From positions 1 through 57,433 of IMG/VR virus record IMGVR_UViG_3300027903_000008: a DNA stretch of 57,433 nucleotides. The stretch is one strand, 5' to 3'. Below are positions 3,451 through 37,305 of this stretch, piece by piece; the first letter of the stretch is position 1; every line of letters begins with the position of its first letter. The notes under the pieces are model-generated. The model made no database searches and was not told the origin of the DNA. It saw only the letters and a program-made list of their open reading frames with translations. This DNA is from a virus. The position numbers and the translations under genes are program-made.

Positions 3451-3649
3451 TCACGTTTGGGAGGTCGGCTACGAACCTGCTTCGCAGGTTCTACACGTCC
3501 GCTACCAACCGACTCTACGAGTGCCGGAAGGCCGGCTCGTCGAGTATCACGGCGTGTCCGCTGAAGCGGCGAACACGGTCCTAACAGCTCCGAGCATCGG
3601 TAAAGCTCTACATGAGCACATACGCGGCAAACACGAAATGAGAGGATAA
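3431..3649 (+). CDS. KTSC-domain protein
   Basis: About 72 residues from the ATG at 3431; an upstream ATG at 3410 is also possible. It shows the KTSC pattern: a VWEVGYEPASQVLHVRY strand pair, a tyrosine-containing VEYHGVSAE turn and a closing A.SIGKALHEHIRG helix. The molecular role of KTSC domains is not established. A perfect hairpin GAACCTGC-TTC-GCAGGTTC (3473-3491) lies within the coding sequence. Confidence 0.7.
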   Translation: MKKVLSSHVWEVGYEPASQVLHVRYQPTLRVPEGRLVEYHGVSAEAANTVLTAPSIGKALHEHIRGKHEMRG

Positions 3650-3657
3650 TAGACGCT

Positions 3658-6426
3658 ATGACCCATATTCGCCTCAATATGATTGTCAAGAACGAAGCAG
3701 CTCGCATAGAGCGATGTCTACACTCTGTCCTTCCGCATATTTCTTCATGGGCGATCGTTGATACAGGATCAACAGATGGTACACAAGACATTGTGTTTCG
3801 CGTATTGCAGGATATACCAGGCGATATAAAGGACGAGCCATTTGAGAACTTCGAACAAGCACGTAACGCAGCTCTACAGTATGCACAGAGAACGATTAAT
3901 AACGGCCCAGTGTATCCGTCCGTATCCTCGTTGCCTCTCGACTATGAATACATACTATTCGTTGACGCTGACATGGAGATGATCGTAGATGATGACACTG
4001 TCTTCGACCACCTGATAGCGCCCGCGTATCGAATGTTACAGCGTGGTAACGATCTGTCGTACTGGAATACTCGCCTTCTACGAAAGGACCAGATGGCGAG
4101 ATATATAGGTGTGACGCACGAGTATCTTGATACGGGGACAGAGCCAACGAAGTTAGACGGGGCGTGGTTTCGGGACTATGCCGATGGCAGCAACCGGCAC
4201 AACAAGGCTGATCGCGACATCAAACTGTTGGAGGAGGATGTTAGAAAGAACCCGAAGAACGCTAGATCGTGGTTCTATCTTGCACAGAGCTACAAAGATG
4301 CCGGCAAGTTGGAGAGGGCCGCCGCAGCGTACAACACCCGCATAAACCTAGAAGGGTGGGAAGAGGAAGTATGGTATTCGAAGCTCGCACGGGCGAGATG
4401 CCGTCGCGACGCAGGCTACGAGACAGAGTTTCTCCGTGGAGCACTGGACGCATTTGGCGATAGGCCAGCCCGTGCCGAACCATTATACGATCTCGCTAAC
4501 TACTATCGCAACAAAGGCAAGAACGAGCTAGCGACAATGTTCGCCGAGCGGGGTCTCCACGTTGCGAAGCCGTCCGATCTACTCTTTGTGGAGGATGTTC
4601 CATATGATTACGGTCTACTTGAGGAGCTGAGTATTGCAGGGTACTACGTGCCGAAGGCACGCGAAGGCGCGCATGACGCTTGCGAGAAGCTCGCGCTGTC
4701 GCGCGACGTGCCGGCACATGTGCGCGACACGGCATGGTCCAACTTATTCTTCTACACGCGGCCACTACACGAGACGTGTCCATCTTTCGCTGTGCGAAAG
4801 ATAGACTTTGTGCCGCCGGACGGCTACCACCCCATGAATCCTAGCGTATGTCGCGCCGGCGAAAGCATGTGGTTAAACGTGCGATGCGTAAATTATGTCA
4901 TTGGACAGGACGGCCGATATAGCATGCCGCACGATGGCCCAGGCATAAAGACTAGAAACTTCCTCTTCACCCTCGACGACGACCTTAGAATAGACCAGGG
5001 CAAAGAAATTCTTCCTCCTGCCGACTTCCCCACCGAGTGGAGCGAAGTGATCGGCTTTGAGGATATGCGTCTATTCCATTACAACAACTTTGAGGATATA
5101 CGGCTCTCCGGACATGACGGGCATCTATGGTGTTCAGCGACGGTACGTCAACATAGCAAAGAGGGGTGGTGCGAAATTGCACTGGCGCGAATAAGTGACA
5201 TCACATTTAGGCTGCATAGCTGGCATACCATGCGTCCGGAAGGTGAGAAGCGCAATGAGAAGAATTGGATGCCAGTCTCCGACGGCACTGGACGATTTAT
5301 TTACTCGTGCGACCCGCTCCGAGTGGTAGACGTAACCGGTAAAACCGTAAGCGAGACCACACCACCAGTGGCCGCAGACCACTGGGGAGGTAGCTCGCAG
5401 GCTGTTGTCTTCGATGGTGGTTACCTCGCTCTAGTGCATGAACGGATAGCGAAGCCGGGCCTTGGTCAACGACAGTACCAACGCCGCTTCGTCTGGTTCG
5501 ACGGGGAGCTAGAGCTTCGCAAGATATCGCGGAGGTTCTACTTTGGAGATGGAGAGGGAGAGTTCGTCTGTGGCATGTGCGAACACCCAGATGGCGAGCG
5601 CCTTGTAGTGTCCTACGGAGTGTTGGATAGAGAGGCATGGCTTGCAACAGTCGACGTTGAGGAGGTGAGACTATCGCTGCGCGATGTGGTGCCTCCGGCG
5701 CCACCGCAGGACATGACGTCTCCAACGCCGAAGGATATCAGCGACTGGTTGTGGAGGAACACGAACGCAGCCCTGCAGTCCATTAACGATGTAGACCATG
5801 CTACTGCTTGGCTGCGGTCACAAGGCTGTTCGACCCACCCCGATCGATGGAAGGACTGGGATACGGTCGTCGCTATGCAGCATACTCTCATGACCGTTCC
5901 TAAAGATGGAGCTATACTGGACGCGGGAGCGGATCGAGTTTCGCAGTATCTCCCAAGCCTAGCGAAGCTAGGTTATACGAGCCTCACTGGTATCAACAAA
6001 ATCTGTGACCGTGCAGAAGGCATCAACGGTGTATGGTATGAGAGAGGGGATATAGAGAATACACACTTCCACGATGAATGCTTCGCATTTATAGCGTGTC
6101 TCTCAGTAGTAGAGCACGGCGTAGATATCGGAGCATTCCTGAAGGAAGCGGCCCGCCTATTGCGGAAAGGAGGACATCTCTTCATTTCGACGGACTATTG
6201 GTATAGGCCGCTACAGTGGGATAGAGTCCCGGCGATGACGATATTCACTGAGGAGGACATGAGAGTGTCTGTAGATATTGCCCGCACGGTTGGCCTACGG
6301 CCGACAGGCGCTATACCCATACAGTACACATGTAAGGATAAGGTGGTTCGCTGGGCAGGGATGGACTATACCTTCATCAACCTCCTCTTTGAGAAGGTCG
6401 ACAATTATCCCGTTGAGGAAGTCTGA
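3658..6426 (+). CDS. Multidomain glycosyltransferase / TPR / beta-propeller / methyltransferase
   Basis: A 922-residue fusion. Residues 1-190 look like a GT-A family 2 glycosyltransferase: MIVKNEA start, DTGSTDGT nucleotide-binding loop (35-42) and FVDADME (101-107) as the metal-binding DXD. Residues of roughly 195-330 resemble TPR helices (ARSWFYLAQSYKDAGKLERA). Roughly 380-690 looks like a five-bladed propeller of the GH130/GH43 type, with GFEDMRLF near the usual EDPR position. The last 180 residues resemble a class I SAM methyltransferase (ILDAGAD, later CLSVVEHGVD and LLRKGGHLFISTD). It could modify host surface glycans or decorate the virion. Domain identities are by motif only; the overall combination is unusual. 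Confidence 0.78.
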   Translation: MTHIRLNMIVKNEAARIERCLHSVLPHISSWAIVDTGSTDGTQDIVFRVLQDIPGDIKDEPFENFEQARNAALQYAQRTINNGPVYPSVSSLPLDYEYILFVDADMEMIVDDDTVFDHLIAPAYRMLQRGNDLSYWNTRLLRKDQMARYIGVTHEYLDTGTEPTKLDGAWFRDYADGSNRHNKADRDIKLLEEDVRKNPKNARSWFYLAQSYKDAGKLERAAAAYNTRINLEGWEEEVWYSKLARARCRRDAGYETEFLRGALDAFGDRPARAEPLYDLANYYRNKGKNELATMFAERGLHVAKPSDLLFVEDVPYDYGLLEELSIAGYYVPKAREGAHDACEKLALSRDVPAHVRDTAWSNLFFYTRPLHETCPSFAVRKIDFVPPDGYHPMNPSVCRAGESMWLNVRCVNYVIGQDGRYSMPHDGPGIKTRNFLFTLDDDLRIDQGKEILPPADFPTEWSEVIGFEDMRLFHYNNFEDIRLSGHDGHLWCSATVRQHSKEGWCEIALARISDITFRLHSWHTMRPEGEKRNEKNWMPVSDGTGRFIYSCDPLRVVDVTGKTVSETTPPVAADHWGGSSQAVVFDGGYLALVHERIAKPGLGQRQYQRRFVWFDGELELRKISRRFYFGDGEGEFVCGMCEHPDGERLVVSYGVLDREAWLATVDVEEVRLSLRDVVPPAPPQDMTSPTPKDISDWLWRNTNAALQSINDVDHATAWLRSQGCSTHPDRWKDWDTVVAMQHTLMTVPKDGAILDAGADRVSQYLPSLAKLGYTSLTGINKICDRAEGINGVWYERGDIENTHFHDECFAFIACLSVVEHGVDIGAFLKEAARLLRKGGHLFISTDYWYRPLQWDRVPAMTIFTEEDMRVSVDIARTVGLRPTGAIPIQYTCKDKVVRWAGMDYTFINLLFEKVDNYPVEEV

Positions 6427-7459: not shown

Positions 7460-9038
7460 GCATATCTCGGTTTGGCACCTGCAACAGATCGATCAAGTCC
7501 TCTGGGCCGATCGCACCGGCTTTGAAGAGGAATGCGGCAGTATTGGCGTGGTCCTGTTCGTAAACGGGGCTGGCACTATGTCCATCCACCAAGACTCGCG
7601 TGTCGAGGGGCAACTGCGATAGGTAGAAGTCGGTGGCGCCTACAGTGTCACTAGCGTCGGTCCAGTGGGCACGGGCGTCCTTAGCGGCTGTAAGCCACAA
7701 AAACTTCTCGGCGAACTCCGTAAGCTGTCGCTCTATGCGTATAGCGCGGTCGCGTAGACGGGGACTGGCGGTGCGTACTAGGCCCTGGAAGTGTGTGCCG
7801 GCCCGTACGCCGGGCTCTCCCTTACCGCTAAGGACATTGTCGAAGCCGGCGATCTCGTCGAAGAAGCCAATGATAGCCTTCAGCTCATCGAATGCCTTCT
7901 CCGGCATAGGCGGCGTAAGATCTTCTACCTTCGCCCCAGGCGTTGCTTCTGCAATCCACCCATCATTCTTAAGCTGATCGTACTTCTCATCGGACATCCC
8001 GCTAAAGCCCAGGAACGCGCGAATGCGGTCGTACTGTAGAGACATGATCCGCTTAATGTCTTCGAGGCGATCGGACAGTAGAGCCTGTAGCTTTAGGAGA
8101 TCGACCAATTCGCTGCGACCCCAAGCGTAGTTGGACTGCGGGTTCGCACAGATCTTCACGTAAGGATGATCATGGGCAACGAACATGTTGCTCCGCAATG
8201 AACGAGGGGCGAGTAGGATATCCGGTTCGCACATCTGGATGGTAGTGTAGTCCTCAGTGTCGTCGTTGACGATGTACAGCTCGTGGATGGTTATGAGGCC
8301 GGCGGCAACGTCGGGTGAGAGCATAGCGCCATTCGCAAGCGAAGCTAGTTGCACAAAGCCACCGGCTCCGCCGGAGGGCTGGTCGGGGGTCCCCACAACA
8401 GGTGAGGTGCCACTGAGCAAGATCTGGTGTATGTAGCTATCACCCTCCTCTGTAGCGGATCGCCGTCGAGCGTAGGCGCTGGCACGCCTAAAGATTTCCT
8501 TCGCATCGCTCCGATGCGAGATACGACGCCACAATTCCTGTTCAGTAATATAGGCGGTTTCGCAGATAGCCTCTTGTTGGTCGAGCTCAGGCTCATCCTC
8601 ACGGTATAGTCCCATACTCCACGGCATCCGAACCTTCACGATCGGACCACTGTGAGCCCATACCAGCTTTAGAAAGCAACTGCCATGCGGCAGGCTCTCG
8701 AACACGGCCTGACCAAAGGCTATATCGAAGTCGCGGCGGATAAACTCGCGGGTGATATAGCGACCGGCGACTTGGCCGCGGCGAGTCCAGTCGGGACCGT
8801 AGTTGTTTTCGTACTCCACAAAGAAACGGAGGTCCGCCGGCGCGAAAAGGACGCTAGAAAGCTTGTCACAGTGAGGGAGGAGCTTATTGTAGATAGACTG
8901 CACACCGGTCCCACCGCCAGTGTAGAGCCAATTTTTCTGAGTTCGTGCTAATGCTGCACGAGCGCTCGCGCTGACGCGGCATTGATCAACCACGTCTTTA
9001 GTCCACTGCGGTAGCTCCTTGGTATCTGGCAATATCAT
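7350..9038 (-). CDS. Portal protein
   Basis: About 562 residues from the ATG at 9038, which overlaps the stop of the upstream gene (ATGA). The portal forms the dodecameric ring at one vertex through which DNA passes. Support is its size, the mix of an N-terminal helical stem region, a central WGRSELVDLLKLQALL segment followed by a long helix with a tyrosine, and a C-terminal helical part with FDEIAGFDNVLSGKGE and a glycine-rich turn, as in podovirus-type portals. It is the only protein in the window with this size and layout. It is separated from scaffold and coat by the plus-strand island. Confidence 0.78.
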   Translation of the reverse strand: MILPDTKELPQWTKDVVDQCRVSASARAALARTQKNWLYTGGGTGVQSIYNKLLPHCDKLSSVLFAPADLRFFVEYENNYGPDWTRRGQVAGRYITREFIRRDFDIAFGQAVFESLPHGSCFLKLVWAHSGPIVKVRMPWSMGLYREDEPELDQQEAICETAYITEQELWRRISHRSDAKEIFRRASAYARRRSATEEGDSYIHQILLSGTSPVVGTPDQPSGGAGGFVQLASLANGAMLSPDVAAGLITIHELYIVNDDTEDYTTIQMCEPDILLAPRSLRSNMFVAHDHPYVKICANPQSNYAWGRSELVDLLKLQALLSDRLEDIKRIMSLQYDRIRAFLGFSGMSDEKYDQLKNDGWIAEATPGAKVEDLTPPMPEKAFDELKAIIGFFDEIAGFDNVLSGKGEPGVRAGTHFQGLVRTASPRLRDRAIRIERQLTEFAEKFLWLTAAKDARAHWTDASDTVGATDFYLSQLPLDTRVLVDGHSASPVYEQDHANTAAFLFKAGAIGPEDLIDLLQVPNRDMLKERLVERQAAQQKFLASLPPEERMKVLSHQSGRRH

Positions 9039-30927: not shown

Positions 30928-31104
30928 ATGACTGAGAACCTTACCGAGATCGCGGTGGAGAGTGTGGGCGATGGAGAAGTGCGGCCTCGCCGCCGCAACC
31001 GTCACACCTGTCGCGACTGCGGCCAGCACGTCATACATCGTCGTCGACTCTGCGAGCCGTGCCGGCGCCGCTCCATCGCCCTGTTTTGGCTTCTCCGTCC
31101 ATGA
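30928..31104 (+). CDS. Small zinc-ribbon protein
   Basis: A 58-residue basic protein with CRDCGQ and CEPCRRR, one clear zinc ribbon flanked by Arg-rich stretches, directly upstream of the polymerase remnant. Its stop overlaps the remnant start (ATGA). Confidence 0.6.
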   Translation: MTENLTEIAVESVGDGEVRPRRRNRHTCRDCGQHVIHRRRLCEPCRRRSIALFWLLRP

Positions 31105-31145
31105 GACTCCCATCTGACGCCCGCTACGTGATATCGGTGTGCTAG
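31101..31145 (+). pseudogene. Remnant of the original 5' end of the DNA polymerase gene
   Basis: A 14-codon reading frame (ATG at 31101 overlapping the previous stop, TAG at 31143) encodes a peptide with PSDARYVI, closely similar to PSDAKYCI at residues 8-15 of the polymerase that starts at 31587. The codons differ, so it is not a simple duplicate of the present start. The ATGA coupling to the upstream gene is retained, as expected for the ancestral start. The HNH gene lies between the two copies. It therefore looks like the severed old 5' end left by HNH-gene insertion. Confidence 0.6.
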
Positions 31146-31149
31146 AACT

Positions 31150-31590
31150 ATGCCACGGCGACCGCCATCTCTATTAGAGATTGCTTTCATAGAGTATCTT
31201 TACTGGAATGAAAGAAAATCACAGATAGCCATTGCCAAAATGCTCGATCGTTCACAACCTAGCGTAAGCTCTATTATGGCATTATACGGTATTTCAAGTG
31301 AAATAAACAGACGGAGAGAACAAAGAGGCGCACATAACCATAACTACAAGGATGGGTTATCAAGAAGCACTGTCAGAAGGATCACAAAAAGACTAATTGA
31401 AGCTACAGATCGACCATTAAACAAATGTGAGAGATGCAACGAGACATTCAATATCGGTCTTAATAGACATCATAGAGACCGTGATAGGTCCAACAACGCT
31501 ATAGCCAATATAGAATTATTGTGTACGTCTTGCCATATGAGAGAACACAGCGACAGTCGTATACGTGATTCCCGTGGGAGGTACACATGA
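31150..31590 (+). CDS. HNH homing endonuclease
   Basis: A 146-residue protein. N-terminal helices (IAFIEYLYWNERKSQIAIAKML, residues 9-30 region) form a helix-turn-helix-like DNA-binding part; the C-terminal half is an HNH domain: KCERCNETF, LNRHHRDRDRSNN and LLCTSCHMREH provide the zinc knuckles and the His-His-Asn catalytic set. The gene is clearly more AT-rich than its neighbours, a sign of recent arrival. Its stop overlaps the polymerase start (ATGA). Confidence 0.88.
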   Translation: MPRRPPSLLEIAFIEYLYWNERKSQIAIAKMLDRSQPSVSSIMALYGISSEINRRREQRGAHNHNYKDGLSRSTVRRITKRLIEATDRPLNKCERCNETFNIGLNRHHRDRDRSNNAIANIELLCTSCHMREHSDSRIRDSRGRYT

Positions 31591-33386
31591 GGCTGGTTCA
31601 AAGTGGTCCGTCTGATGCTAAGTATTGTATTATAGGGGAGGCTTTGGGCGCAGAAGAGGAGCAGCTAGGCCGTCCCTTCGTCGGCTCTAGCGGCCACGAG
31701 CTTTACCGCATGCTAGAAGAGGCCCGCTGGCTGCCGCCTGGCACAGCCGAGCGCATCATCCGCGACCTATACAGGCGCAGCTTCATCGAGCTTACGACGG
31801 CGCTGGACGACGCCAGCATCTTCATCACCAACGTCTGCCATGAGAGACCTCCCAACAATGACATCAACGCTTTCTTCTGCCGAAAAACCGAAGCCAAACG
31901 CAACGGCGTCGCTCCGTTACTCGATCGTTTTCCCAACAGATCTATCCGAGAGGGCATTGTACGACTTAACGAGGACCTTCATCGACTTAAACCGGCGTTT
32001 GTGCTTGCTCTTGGAGGAACAGCACTTTGGGCGCTTACAGGTACGAGCGGAATTACTAAATGGCGCGGGTCTATCCTTGCTATCGGCGAACATCTACACG
32101 GGGCTGCCGGAATAAAGCTAGTCCCTACGTTCCACCCCGCAGACATCCTCCGCGAGTGGCCACATCGCGCCGTCGCAGTACAAGACATGCGCCGCTCCCT
32201 TCGGGAACGTGAATTCCCAGAAATTCGTCGTCCTACATACCACTTCATCACAAAGCCGAGCTTCGCTGAGGCAACCGATTACCTCACGGAGCAGGCCGAC
32301 AACCCGGAGCACGCCGATGTCCCTCTTGTCGCCGATATTGAGACTCCTCATGGCTGGCGCAATCTGCCTGGTCATATTGCCTGTATTGGGTTTGCTTCTA
32401 GTCGTACAGATGCTATTTGCATCCCTCTTATGTGTCTGGACGATCTTGAAGGGTACTGGCCAATGGAGCAGGAGACGCAGATAGTCCTAGGCATACGCCA
32501 TCTCATGACCCAAAGAGCCATGATATTCCACAAAGGCATCTTTGAGTGCCAGCACTTCGCTGCCCACTGGGGCTTCCTGCCTAACTGGCAACATGACACG
32601 ATGGTAATGCAGCATGTGCTCTTTCCTGGCCTACTTGGTGGAAAGATCGATCCTGTTACCGGCCGCGTCGACAAACGCGGCAGCAGCCTCGCACTGTCCT
32701 TTCTATCGAGCATGTACTGCCAATATCACCGGTACTGGAAGGATGACGGCCGCGACTGGAACACCAAAGAGGTGCCAGACGAAGATCAGTGGTGGCGATA
32801 CAACTGTGAAGACTGCGTTCGCACGTACGAGTGCTACGAAGTCCTTCGGCTTTCGTTAGAGCGCGGAGCGCTTTGGGCATCCTATCGTTTTATGATGAAC
32901 CTTGCTGCCCCGGTGCTCTACATGATGCTTCACGGCATGCCCTTCGATCGCGCTACACGCGACGAGTTTCGGGTCGACGTACGTCGTGAGCAGTCCACGC
33001 TCGCGCAGTGGATCAACACCGTCTGCGGCCACGAGCTCAACACTGGCAGTTCGCCGCAAATGCAGTCTCTCTTCTACGAAGATCTTGCCGTCGCGCCGAT
33101 CTACAAGGGCAAGGGCGCTGCGAAGCGGCCCACCCTCAACGTTGGGGCGCTCGACGTGATCGCAAAGCGAGTACCGCTGCTCGCCCCCCTCTGTCACGCA
33201 GTGGCAGACGAGCGTAGCTTAGCGCACTTCGACGAGAACATACTGCGAGCGAAGCTCGACGGCGACGGCCGGATGCGCAGCGAGATAAATCTTACAGGGA
33301 CCGAGACAATGCGCTTCGCCAGCACCGAGACACCCTTCGGCACTGGCCTCAACCTACAAAATATTAACCGCATGCCAGAGGAGTAA
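31587..33386 (+). CDS. UDG-like / 3'-5' exonuclease / DNA polymerase A, N-terminal half
   Basis: A 599-residue protein. Residues 1-205 resemble a family 4 uracil-DNA glycosylase: GEALGAEEEQLGRPFVG (17-33), NVCHERPP (82-89), LALGGTALWAL and PTFHPADILR (180-189); the N-terminal CxxC of true iron-sulfur members is absent, as in SPO1-type polymerases. Residues 245-420 are a DEDDy exonuclease: VADIETP (DxE), HKGIFE and YNCED. The rest is the start of polymerase A up to NLQNIN just before motif A, where the frame ends. The catalytic motifs are in the separate gene at 34544. The first ~20 codons are AT-rich like the HNH gene. Confidence 0.88.
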   Translation: MRLVQSGPSDAKYCIIGEALGAEEEQLGRPFVGSSGHELYRMLEEARWLPPGTAERIIRDLYRRSFIELTTALDDASIFITNVCHERPPNNDINAFFCRKTEAKRNGVAPLLDRFPNRSIREGIVRLNEDLHRLKPAFVLALGGTALWALTGTSGITKWRGSILAIGEHLHGAAGIKLVPTFHPADILREWPHRAVAVQDMRRSLREREFPEIRRPTYHFITKPSFAEATDYLTEQADNPEHADVPLVADIETPHGWRNLPGHIACIGFASSRTDAICIPLMCLDDLEGYWPMEQETQIVLGIRHLMTQRAMIFHKGIFECQHFAAHWGFLPNWQHDTMVMQHVLFPGLLGGKIDPVTGRVDKRGSSLALSFLSSMYCQYHRYWKDDGRDWNTKEVPDEDQWWRYNCEDCVRTYECYEVLRLSLERGALWASYRFMMNLAAPVLYMMLHGMPFDRATRDEFRVDVRREQSTLAQWINTVCGHELNTGSSPQMQSLFYEDLAVAPIYKGKGAAKRPTLNVGALDVIAKRVPLLAPLCHAVADERSLAHFDENILRAKLDGDGRMRSEINLTGTETMRFASTETPFGTGLNLQNINRMPEE

Positions 33387-33392
33387 GATCGG

Positions 33393-33569
33393 ATGGCGAA
33401 GGACCTGAAATCATTCTTCATCCCACCTCATAGTTGTCCAGACTGTGGTGAGACAGAGTGGTATTCATGCGAGGATAGTGGCCACGATCTCTGTATAGAA
33501 TGTATGGGCTGCCATAGTCGCTTCGGCGTGCAGATGCCGCCGTTCAACATGATCGAGCGTATCGAGTGA
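33393..33569 (+). CDS. Cys-rich small protein inside the split polymerase
   Basis: A 58-residue protein, 6 bases after the polymerase N-half stop. CPDCGETEW, CIECMGCHSRF give two zinc knuckles. Its first residues, DLKSFFIPP, resemble the RRLFIPS that opens the polymerase C half, so its 5' end might derive from polymerase sequence; this resemblance is weak. Confidence 0.55.
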   Translation: MAKDLKSFFIPPHSCPDCGETEWYSCEDSGHDLCIECMGCHSRFGVQMPPFNMIERIE

Positions 33570-33766
33570 AAGGGCACTTAGTGCAGTACGAATACAAGTT
33601 CGTAAAGCAAGGTATGGGCGGTTCCGGTTCCATACATTGTACTTACTGTCCGAAGCCGCCAGGGCAAGCCTGTGGGTTGAACTGTGTTGATGATGTCTAC
33701 GCGAAGATTCAGAAAGAGAGAGAGGCTGACGGTGTCATCGTCAACGACACACCTGCGCAGGACTGA
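33566..33766 (+). CDS. Small Cys-containing protein inside the split polymerase
   Basis: About 66 residues from the GTG overlapping the previous TGA (another GTG at 33581). It carries IHCTYCPKPPGQACGLNC, four cysteines that could bind metal. Stop overlaps the next start (TGATG). Confidence 0.5.
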   Translation: MKGHLVQYEYKFVKQGMGGSGSIHCTYCPKPPGQACGLNCVDDVYAKIQKEREADGVIVNDTPAQD

Positions 33767-33936
33767 TGATCACTGTGTCCCGCTTCTTCGACCCCCAGCG
33801 GCGATGCTGGACATCGTGCCACGCCGACGATGACGGGTTTTGCGAGTGGGTGGAGTGCCCTCAGCTCCGCGACAGTGAGCCAGCGCAAACAGGGCGACAT
33901 TGCCCTTTAGATACTAGTATAGTAGAGGATGACTGA
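33766..33936 (+). CDS. Small hypothetical protein inside the split polymerase
   Basis: A 56-residue ORF from ATG 33766 (TGATG overlap) to TGA 33936. Trp/Cys-rich (CWTSCHADDDGFCEWVEC) and acidic at the end. Coupling supports translation; no family recognised. Confidence 0.5.
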   Translation: MITVSRFFDPQRRCWTSCHADDDGFCEWVECPQLRDSEPAQTGRHCPLDTSIVEDD

Positions 33937-33938
33937 CA

Positions 33939-34166
33939 ATGCCAACCACGATTGCTCTCTTTGTCACGATCTGCTTAGCAGCAGACCGGGGGCCAGTCTG
34001 TCGTGAAGTGAACCTATCGGCTTACGCCGACATAGAAGCCTGCGAAGCGGCCCGCACCGACAGGGTCGCGCAGTGGAAGAAAGAGTTCTCCGAGGTGTTT
34101 CCTGGTGTGTACTGGCTTGCCGCTGAGCGCTGTGGACCTAACGCTGTAGAGGGAGATGACCTATGA
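33939..34166 (+). CDS. Small exported-type protein inside the split polymerase
   Basis: A 75-residue protein with a hydrophobic start (TTIALFVTICLAAD, weak signal sequence) and three later cysteines (CREV, CEAA, CGPN). A secreted small Cys protein is possible. Its stop overlaps the next ATG region. Confidence 0.5.
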   Translation: MPTTIALFVTICLAADRGPVCREVNLSAYADIEACEAARTDRVAQWKKEFSEVFPGVYWLAAERCGPNAVEGDDL

Positions 34167-34528
34167 TGAACGGTATTATGGTAGGGCTGGCCCTCAGTGC
34201 CGCTGTCCTCGTCCACGACGAGGCACCTCCTCACCACGCGCCTGGCGAGCGCACTCATCTGCCCTTCGCCTGCCGCACTGTCGAAGACGCCCTAACCGTA
34301 GGCGTCGCGATGGACACTATGGCCCCGCAGCGTGTCGGTGAGATTGCTCGTAAGAAGATACTCGCCGGCAAGTGTTGGACTTTGCCGCCAGTGGCTCTCG
34401 CCGAAGGCACGCTTACGGAGCAGCATGGCAGCGAGGAGAACACCACCGTCTGGGGCTATCGTCTCGATGGTGTCGCAGAGGAGTTCTACGTGCCTCTCAC
34501 CCGCGATCCTTCCGACGATGGGCTGTGA
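34163..34528 (+). CDS. Possible exported protein inside the split polymerase
   Basis: A 121-residue protein starting at the double methionine 34163, overlapping the preceding stop. A short hydrophobic start (NGIMVGLALSAAVLV) could be a signal peptide; then FACRTVEDAL and KCWTLPP provide two Cys, and the C-terminal part is beta-rich (VWGYRLDGVAEEFYVPL). It ends 15 bases before the polymerase C half. Confidence 0.55.
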   Translation: MMNGIMVGLALSAAVLVHDEAPPHHAPGERTHLPFACRTVEDALTVGVAMDTMAPQRVGEIARKKILAGKCWTLPPVALAEGTLTEQHGSEENTTVWGYRLDGVAEEFYVPLTRDPSDDGL

Positions 34529-34543
34529 CGGCTTCGCCATCAC

Positions 34544-35284
34544 ATGAAGCCAGCCACGACACCACCGGTGCGGCGCCTGTTCATCCCCTCGCTGGGCTAT
34601 CTACTCTTTGAGGGTGACCTTGCTCGCGCCGATGCACAGATTGTCGCCGCCGAGAGTGGTGACGCGGCCCTTCTGGCCGCATTTCGAGAGAACCTGGACA
34701 TCCACACCGACAACGCGAAGTGGTGTTACAGCAGTCACTTCGTGACTGCGGAGCAGCGACAGTGGAATAAGAATGGCGTCCACGCCGTCGACTACGCCTG
34801 TAAGGCGCGCACCCTCGCTACCACATTACACGTCTCCGTGAGACGCGCCGAGGAATGGATAGACCGATGGTTCACGCTGCACCCGTCTATCCTCGATTGG
34901 CACAAACGAGTCGATCGCGAGCTACGGCTTCGCCGCACCGTGAGCAATATCTACGGCTTCCGCAAATATTACACGGACCGCCTCGACGCTCTGCTGCCGC
35001 AGGCCCTCGCATGGATCGCGTCTTCGACAGTCAGCATAACGATCAATAAGGCACTGTTCCGTATCTACAGCGAGCTGCCGCTCGTGAGGCCTCTATTGCA
35101 GATCCACGACAGCGTTCTCGGGCAGGTTCCACTAGACCAGGCTGACGCTCTCCTACCGTCTATCCGAGAGGCAATGCAAGTCGAGATACCTTACTCTCAA
35201 CCACTCGTCATCCCCGTGACGCTCAAAGTCAGCACCAAATCATGGGGGGACATGGAAACATGGCCGTGGAAGGAAGCAGCATGA
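34544..35284 (+). CDS. DNA polymerase A, C-terminal (catalytic) half
   Basis: A 246-residue protein with the polymerase A palm and fingers that the upstream gene lacks. Motif A is FEGDLARADAQ (Asp25), motif B is RQWNKNGVHAVDY (Arg72, Lys76, Tyr84) and motif C is QIHDSVLG (Asp189; Ser replaces the Glu of HDE). Pol I-type proteins normally carry NLQNI and motif A in one chain, 20-30 residues apart. It probably pairs with the N half to give an active replicase. Starts at ATG 34544; the nearby GTG of the preceding gene end is not used. Confidence 0.88.
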   Translation: MKPATTPPVRRLFIPSLGYLLFEGDLARADAQIVAAESGDAALLAAFRENLDIHTDNAKWCYSSHFVTAEQRQWNKNGVHAVDYACKARTLATTLHVSVRRAEEWIDRWFTLHPSILDWHKRVDRELRLRRTVSNIYGFRKYYTDRLDALLPQALAWIASSTVSITINKALFRIYSELPLVRPLLQIHDSVLGQVPLDQADALLPSIREAMQVEIPYSQPLVIPVTLKVSTKSWGDMETWPWKEAA

Positions 35285-36024: not shown

Positions 36025-37305
36025 ATGCCGCGGCATTTCCCAGACTGGATCGAAGCATACATGTCTCTAGTGCGAGGCAAGACAGAAGCGCCAGAGGTAT
36101 ACTCTTGGTGGTCTGCCGTCGCAACGATCGCCGCCGCGCTGACGCGCAGCGTGTGGATAGACGAAGTCCGCTACCGCTTCTACCCTAACTTCCTTATTGT
36201 CTTAGCTGCACGCCCCGGCGTCGCAAAGAAGTCCACGACCATAGACGAGTGTGTCGGCATCCTCCGCGACATGGACATCAAGCCGTCGCTCTTCGGTCCA
36301 CAGGAGACTACTTGGCCGGCACTATGTGAGAGTTTCGCAAAGCACACGCATAGGCGTCCAGTCGGCTCCGCCGACCCAGCCGCGCTAGACACTGAGTTCG
36401 ACGTACAGTGCGCAATGACCCTTTGCCTGCGCGAGTTCGGGACGTTCCTCCGCCCTGGCGACCGCGACATGATCAACGGCATCACGGACCTATGGGACGG
36501 CGGCGACCGGGTCTATATCAAGTCCACGAAGACCAGCGGCGTAGACACGATACAGAACCCTTTCCTAAACATCATCGGCGCCGCCACAGCGCAGTGGCTC
36601 CGCGACAACTTCCGTGAGTTCGCCGGTTGGGGCATCGCTTCGCGAATAATCTTCGTCCACAGCGACGCCGACCCGACGCCAATATGGAGCCCAAGCGAAC
36701 TGATAGACAGCACTTCGTGGCAAAACACCAGGTCACGTCTGCAAGATGATCTCCGTGACATAATGTTACTGCGGGGGCCGTTCTGCTTCGCCGCCGACGC
36801 GGCGAACCGTGCGAAGGTGTGGTACGAAGATGTAATGCGCACTGCGTCAGCTTACGCCCGTACCGAAGGCGCGGACACATGGGTCTGTGACTTCCTCGCC
36901 CGCAAACAGGTACATGCGCACAAGCTCGCGATGATCCTCGCCGCTTCGCGACGTACGGACCTAACGATCACACTCGCTGACTACGAAGATGCTATAGTCC
37001 GAGTGGAAGCTATAGAGAGCGAGATTCGTCGTATCTTCGCTATTACCCTAGTGCCGTCGCCCGCCGCCGCAATGGAGCACGCCATCTTTGCCGTGGTGAA
37101 GGGTGAGCTGTGCAATGGATTAGCTGGCACGGCGAGCCGGCGGTACATCTTCAACCGCATAGCCGCTTACGTTGATGGAGGCACAGCCGACCGCATGCTC
37201 TCTAGCTTCGTACGCCGTGGAGTTCTACACGAAGAGGTGAACAGGGAGGGACCACAGATCATCCTTTCAGAGAATGCCGACGAAATCTTCAACCACAGAC
37301 ATTAA
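36025..37305 (+). CDS. DUF3987-type helicase-like ATPase
   Basis: A 426-residue protein. The DUF3987 pattern is visible: WIEAYMSL start, a nucleotide-binding loop in ARPGVAKKSTT (about residues 57-67, with Lys in place of the usual second Gly), a REFGTFLRPG segment, and GWGIASRIIFVHSD. Proteins of this group replace or accompany DnaB-like helicases in phages. No primase is visible in the window. The Walker A deviation is noted; it may bind nucleotide weakly. Confidence 0.68.
   Translation: MPRHFPDWIEAYMSLVRGKTEAPEVYSWWSAVATIAAALTRSVWIDEVRYRFYPNFLIVLAARPGVAKKSTTIDECVGILRDMDIKPSLFGPQETTWPALCESFAKHTHRRPVGSADPAALDTEFDVQCAMTLCLREFGTFLRPGDRDMINGITDLWDGGDRVYIKSTKTSGVDTIQNPFLNIIGAATAQWLRDNFREFAGWGIASRIIFVHSDADPTPIWSPSELIDSTSWQNTRSRLQDDLRDIMLLRGPFCFAADAANRAKVWYEDVMRTASAYARTEGADTWVCDFLARKQVHAHKLAMILAASRRTDLTITLADYEDAIVRVEAIESEIRRIFAITLVPSPAAAMEHAIFAVVKGELCNGLAGTASRRYIFNRIAAYVDGGTADRMLSSFVRRGVLHEEVNREGPQIILSENADEIFNHRH

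Follow-up and report, generated by a model that had tools for sequence, protein, structure and literature searches.

How can a DNA polymerase work when its catalytic motifs are encoded in one gene and the remainder of the enzyme in another? This question is raised by IMGVR_UViG_3300027903_000008, a 57,433-bp IMG/VR virus contig classed as linear, which was analysed over its whole length and is called the window below. Its sole recognisable DNA polymerase belongs to family A and is encoded by two genes, at 31587-33386 and 34544-35284 (both on the plus strand, as are all features given below); no second polymerase of family A, B or C was found when we looked for one across the 57,433-bp record. 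The original prediction had proposed a two-subunit replicase or a spliced gene. The first half of this proposal gained support from 50 relatives with conserved catalytic residues, while the second fell, as neither an intron nor an intein was found. Judged on gene sequence and its conservation, the two genes very probably encode two subunits of one working family A polymerase, which would assemble without splicing.

Two complementary chains

The first gene encodes a protein of 599 amino acids (aa), here the N chain, which carries a uracil-DNA glycosylase (UDG)-like domain, a DEDDy-type 3'-5' exonuclease, the thumb and the first part of the palm. The second gene encodes the C chain of 246 aa, with the catalytic palm and the fingers. 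The coordinates and domain content first proposed for both genes, including polymerase sequence up to NLQNIN in the first, agreed with the open reading frames (ORFs) and with the Pfam and phrog_17 matches. In Pfam, the N chain matched UDG (E 2.6e-19), positions 6-132 of DNA_pol_A and, weakly, DNA_pol_A_exo1, while the C chain matched positions 141-379 of DNA_pol_A (E 6e-27). The two chains covered positions 544-985 and 994-1239 of phrog_17, and positions 441-641 and 651-889 of TIGR00593, the latter with weak scores below the cut-off. On the Klenow crystal chain, residues 14-360 were matched by the N-chain profile and residues 365-596 by the C-chain profile. Given that the two profiles are complementary on Klenow, the polymerase fold is complete except for a few loop residues between NLQN and motif A, and nothing else has been lost.

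All the polymerase motifs lie in the C chain, as had been predicted for the second gene: motif A (EGDLARADAQIV), motif B (NKNGVHAVDYACK) and motif C (QIHDS). Among 130 aligned loci, the catalytic Asp of motif A (FEGDLARADAQIV, D25; 34607-34645) is invariant (130/130 rows), the Lys and Tyr of motif B (NKNGVHAVDYACKA, K76 and Y84; 34766-34807) are each found in 128 of the 130 rows, and the catalytic Asp of motif C (D189; 35099-35113) is present in every row covered. By motifs A, B and C, with the catalytic Asp in A and C, the enzyme is classed in family A. The usual trait of a single polypeptide, which does not strictly define this family, is absent here, with the two genes lying 1,157 bp apart.

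The N chain begins with the UDG-like domain (residues 6-193; 31602-32165), of family-4/UdgX type by profile. Its family profile matched solved type-4 UDGs at E ~1e-28, the Pfam UDG match exceeded its cut-off, those to TIGR00758 and TIGR03914 stayed below theirs, and the GExxGxxE and HP motifs are retained; by predicted fold and motifs, the domain is assigned to the family-4/UdgX uracil-DNA glycosylase superfamily. It is followed by the exonuclease domain (32322-32858), in which the exo I (D250/E252) and exo III (Y405/D409) residues are present. The final conserved element is NLQN (33351-33362), and the chain ends as NLQNINRMPEE*, where the tail INRMPEE* (33363-33386) contains Shine-Dalgarno-like GAGGAG codons ahead of the first ORF of the gap (ATG at 33393).

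When each chain was modelled alone, the mean predicted local distance difference test (pLDDT) was 90.5 for the N chain and 96 for the C chain, with a predicted template-modelling score (pTM) of 0.89 for both. The N-chain model resembles Pol I in the exonuclease-thumb part and, in a separate match, type-4 UDGs; the C-chain model aligned with Taq, Bst and Klenow over their palm and fingers at template-modelling scores of 0.78-0.83, normalised by the query. The two models together thus present the predicted palm-fingers-thumb fold. In the arrangement that we propose, the N chain would contribute the UDG-like and proofreading exonuclease domains together with the thumb and the template-side palm, and the C chain the catalytic palm and fingers; the chains would fold as separate domains and bind non-covalently across the palm, rebuilding the active site. 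A break in the loop would cost little, since this loop already measures about 9-72 residues in single-chain relatives.

The same break in 50 relatives

Single-protein scans of IMG/VR returned no match for the N chain and one locus for the C chain, and two alignment-based scans with smaller alignments returned about 155 loci. All stop-to-stop ORFs were then scored with N- and C-chain profiles, which gave 157 loci with both parts, the window and phage records included. Among the 130 non-redundant loci, the comparison with unsplit relatives that had been suggested for this locus found 80 unbroken at the loop between NLQN and motif A and 50 split there, a proportion that is not a population frequency because a split query was used to retrieve the loci by similarity. 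Split rows have N chains that terminate in variants of NLQNIPKGDEE* and C chains that begin as M...LPNIRKLF, while in the fused rows the same two ends are connected by the linker. The distance from the N-chain stop to the C-chain start ranges from -4 to about 2,100 bp, the C-gene start being uncertain in a few split rows. Two of six relatives close to the family on GTDB contigs (L172 and L175) are also split at the loop. The 50 include an isolate genome, Vibrio phage VS-ABTNL-3, which is split at the window's loop and annotated with two separate polymerase genes. Unsplit homologues with the same domain order are present in the phage records of ctMlz233, Mel-JY34 and a Desulfofustis phage.

The active sites are conserved in the split rows: the Asp of motif A and that of motif C are each found in 50 of 50, the motif B Lys in 49 of 50, and the exo I and exo III residues in all 50. 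Purifying selection acts on both halves in the ten close split pairs compared, with ratios of nonsynonymous to synonymous substitution (dN/dS) of 0.05-0.17 where dS was measurable; synonymous sites were saturated in the pair L035/L054. The divergence of the two halves is correlated to a similar degree in split (r 0.60) and fused rows (r 0.62).

Trees were built from the joined halves without linker columns, under LG+G4 and a mixture model. The split or fused state changes 16 times (LG+G4) or 14 times (mixture model), and 12 or 9 of these changes are forced by strongly supported branches alone; these were quick trees with some weak branches, so that the counts mean many rather than an exact number. 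The window falls within a clade (support 95-97) whose 12 divergent members are all split. Given that neither the most distant rows of the tree nor cellular Pol I enzymes are broken at the loop, the fused form is likely the ancestral state. By parsimony, 15-16 events suffice if only fissions are allowed, while a single fission demands 22-24 re-fusions, and the state changes are best read as repeated fission.

Taken together, we infer from these results that the two chains physically assemble, polymerise DNA and serve as the replicase, and that the split arose through a stop plus a new start. A further suggestion is that phage family A replicases became heterodimeric at least a dozen times via this same palm loop with the break selected rather than tolerated; we consider this tentative and rather doubtful. 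If the break were selected, possible gains would be regulation of assembly, exchange of the catalytic chain between co-infecting phages, or a landing site for nucleotide-metabolism genes.

A second break site was also observed, between exo II and exo III of the exonuclease domain, in four IMG/VR relatives (L036, L061/L064, L085 and L005) and Caulobacter phage Kuura. In L017, the polymerase is divided into three pieces. None of the surveyed loci showed a break inside the catalytic C part.

Origin of the break and competing readings

How the break arose is suggested by the relatives with the smallest changes. In L020/L021, the entire change at the loop is an in-frame TAA with ATG immediately after it. 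L060 has overlapping stop and start codons, ATGA (4073), and its K-G-D codons contain the Shine-Dalgarno sequence AAGGAG a few bases before the start. Shine-Dalgarno-like loop codons occur in many split rows and also in some fused rows, which is only suggestive of these codons being the source of a ribosome-binding sequence for the new start. The likely origin would be a stop and a new start within the loop that produced two translationally coupled genes, with the K-G-D/E codons, Shine-Dalgarno-like in many relatives, serving the new start, and other phage genes would build up at the junction afterwards. The polymerase of L055 is near-identical to that of L060, with an HNH/AP2-like ORF (5550-5990) inserted exactly at L060's overlap point. 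This difference of one junction insert suggests that the split may come first and that the junction then gathers genes, but L060 may equally well have lost the insert.

An alternative origin is that the split in the window's lineage was caused by invasion of a homing endonuclease, as in T4-like phages, the neighbouring HNH gene being its trace; we regard this as improbable, and it would be compatible with a working two-chain enzyme. It draws on a helix-turn-helix (HTH)-HNH endonuclease gene (31150-31590, by profile match) that abuts the N gene, its stop overlapping the N-chain start codon, and that has low G+C (47% in 31000-31499) and foreign codon usage. This gene is the only outlier of a polymerase region otherwise continuous in G+C, and it looks recently acquired. 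HNH/AP2-like ORFs also lie in the junctions of three split relatives (L024, L055 and L117). However, these three are the only ones among the 50 junctions, which led us to reject a homing endonuclease as the general cause, and similar ORFs occur beside unsplit genes (L027, L068 and L146). Moreover, the window's HNH gene lies upstream of the N gene and outside the gap, and belongs to another type; in L060 the same split occurs with no insert, and L020 needs TAA ATG alone.

Several observations weigh against the two-subunit reading. No clear Shine-Dalgarno sequence precedes the C gene, the translation of which probably depends on re-initiation after the last ORF of the gap. The record may be incomplete, in which case another polymerase could lie outside it. 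The exo II motif of the window (32526-32546) reads FHKGIFE in place of GQNxxYD, with K for N and E for D, so that proofreading may be weakened; the Asn and Asp are present in all 129 other aligned rows, the window being the sole exception of 130. In two distinct contigs counted in the survey, L119 and L120, the N and C frames overlap by ~90 bp at the linker (about 7628-7719). These two could be fused by a frameshift rather than split, and a programmed frameshift or an intermediate between the fused and split states is possible.

The degenerate exo II motif and the linear, possibly incomplete record would also fit a decaying pseudogene, with replication carried out by the host polymerase or by one outside the record. 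This seems quite unlikely, given that both frames are fully open with every polymerase motif intact, that the window belongs to the 12-member all-split clade of large divergence, and that dN/dS is low on both halves in split relatives.

That the halves are joined by a cis- or trans-splicing group I/II intron, or by a split intein, is very improbable, even though introns and inteins are known from phage polymerase genes and an intein lies within the N chain of one relative, L089. An intron fold had been proposed as a check on 33387-34543, and a scan of 33300-34700 against Rfam gave no match even at E<=5; no intron match was obtained at gathering thresholds in the window and 11 other split loci. 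The gap is instead packed coding sequence. In agreement with the original prediction of five small coupled ORFs, these run in one direction, overlap or lie a few bases apart, and cover 99% of the 1,157 bp, and on these grounds a group I/II intron or trans-splicing was rejected. An intron would also find no room in split relatives whose gap measures -4 to 0 bp. A split intein was rejected on the chain ends and profile scans: only 7 residues follow NLQN in the N chain and 8 precede the conserved palm in the C chain, too short for intein halves, and intein profiles matched neither chain of the window, while the same libraries detected the intein of L089. In that locus, the N chain of a split polymerase (3455-5974) carries the intein at about residues 391-650, inside the exonuclease region, so that a gene split and an intein occur in a single enzyme.

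The last reading, an assembly or sequencing artefact, which had been named as a possible refutation, can practically be dismissed: the searched collections hold no near-identical second contig (the nearest relative is 51% identical), but the same break with conserved ends recurs in dozens of contigs obtained from different samples, and also in the genome of an isolate, and 1,157 bp of coupled ORFs with matching codon usage are no indel.

The five gap ORFs encode proteins of 58 aa (33393-33569), 66 aa (33566-33766), 56 aa (33766-33936), 75 aa (33939-34166) and 121 aa (34163-34528). The first two are Cys-rich, and a sub-threshold zinc-finger profile match was obtained from the first only. Measured against the codon usage of the phage itself, four ORFs score as coding in their frame; the third, with the weakest coding signal, does not. 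Profile scans detected no endonuclease among them, unlike the arrangement of the T4-like 43A/43B genes. Since gap content varies among relatives, these ORFs are not part of the enzyme; a conserved third subunit was rejected, the junction ORFs of relatives being mutually unrelated.

Known split polymerases and genomic neighbours

Split phage polymerases are already known, and what seems new here is the recurrent break at one loop in the UDG-Exo-PolA family. The closest single-chain group, Mel-JY34, ctMlz233 and about 80 relatives (phrog_17), shares the domain order, 36-40% identity to both chains and, in several members, a DUF3987 or primase gene downstream, but has one chain with a variable linker at the position of the window's chain ends. 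Vibrio phage VS-ABTNL-3 shares the break and has overlapping neighbouring genes, but its junction contains one unrelated ORF of 184 aa; we found no comment in the literature on its split polymerase. MEP401 and MEP402, phages of OM43 Methylophilales in the Zobellviridae, encode their family A polymerase in two genes that flank a small ORF, and the authors reported the split in most group I relatives and speculated on an intron (PMC10580990). The uncharacterised MEP401 polymerase lacks the UDG-like domain, and its break follows FLSRYGE, about 15 residues beyond the window's break and directly ahead of motif A.

Reassembly of a phage enzyme from two genes has been described for T4-like phages: gp43A and gp43B occur in Aeromonas phages 25 and 44RR, those of phage 25 (family B) co-purify with polymerase activity, and NrdA of Aeh1 is split by mobE (PMC2988022). 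The gp43A/gp43B proteins differ from the window's chains in being of the non-homologous family B and in their link to a homing endonuclease or intercistronic sequence. In jumbo phages, the catalytic core of DNA polymerase III alpha was predicted as two proteins (PMC7824862), which belong to family C and are encoded by distant genes. No account of a recurrent one-loop break in UDG-Exo-PolA phage polymerases was found in the open-access literature, which is weak evidence, and the searched passages of a 2024 survey of Caudoviricetes polymerases make no mention of split PolA.

Cellular replicases are often multi-subunit, and the step from a single-chain core to two subunits can rarely be observed. 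With fused and split forms side by side in one family, these phages offer a natural example of a one-piece replication enzyme becoming a two-subunit one, and the many independent-looking transitions, the minimal case L020 and the pair L055/L060 make fission directly testable. Annotation is affected too: a split gene may easily pass for two partial polymerases or escape virus surveys based on polA. In vitro, family A polymerases that are split by nature could find use as switchable enzymes.

The junctions of relatives hold five dUTPases, two Lon-type proteases, one ThyX, one RNase_T-type exonuclease, a methyltransferase, HNH-like ORFs and unknowns; nucleotide-metabolism genes (dUTPase, ThyX and, by eye, MazG-like) are common there. 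A dUTPase lies between the polymerase halves in one clade (L062, L070, L080, L086 and L088), and in L011 a gene for a 499-aa di-haem oxidoreductase-like protein (DHOR; 4474-5973) occupies this place. The junction of the window's nearest relative, L013, encodes a Mom-like DNA modification protein (4171-4641, sub-cut-off match), near a gene for a DnaQ-type exonuclease.

Elsewhere, the record carries phage genes for a major head protein, terminase, tail-fibre, Sak4-like, exonuclease and primase-like proteins. The HTH-HNH gene upstream of the N gene is a neighbour outside the enzyme. Downstream of the C gene, a primase-like gene (36025-37305) was identified by its profile match to DUF3987/phrog_14296, and this gene sits just downstream of the polymerase in fused relatives too.

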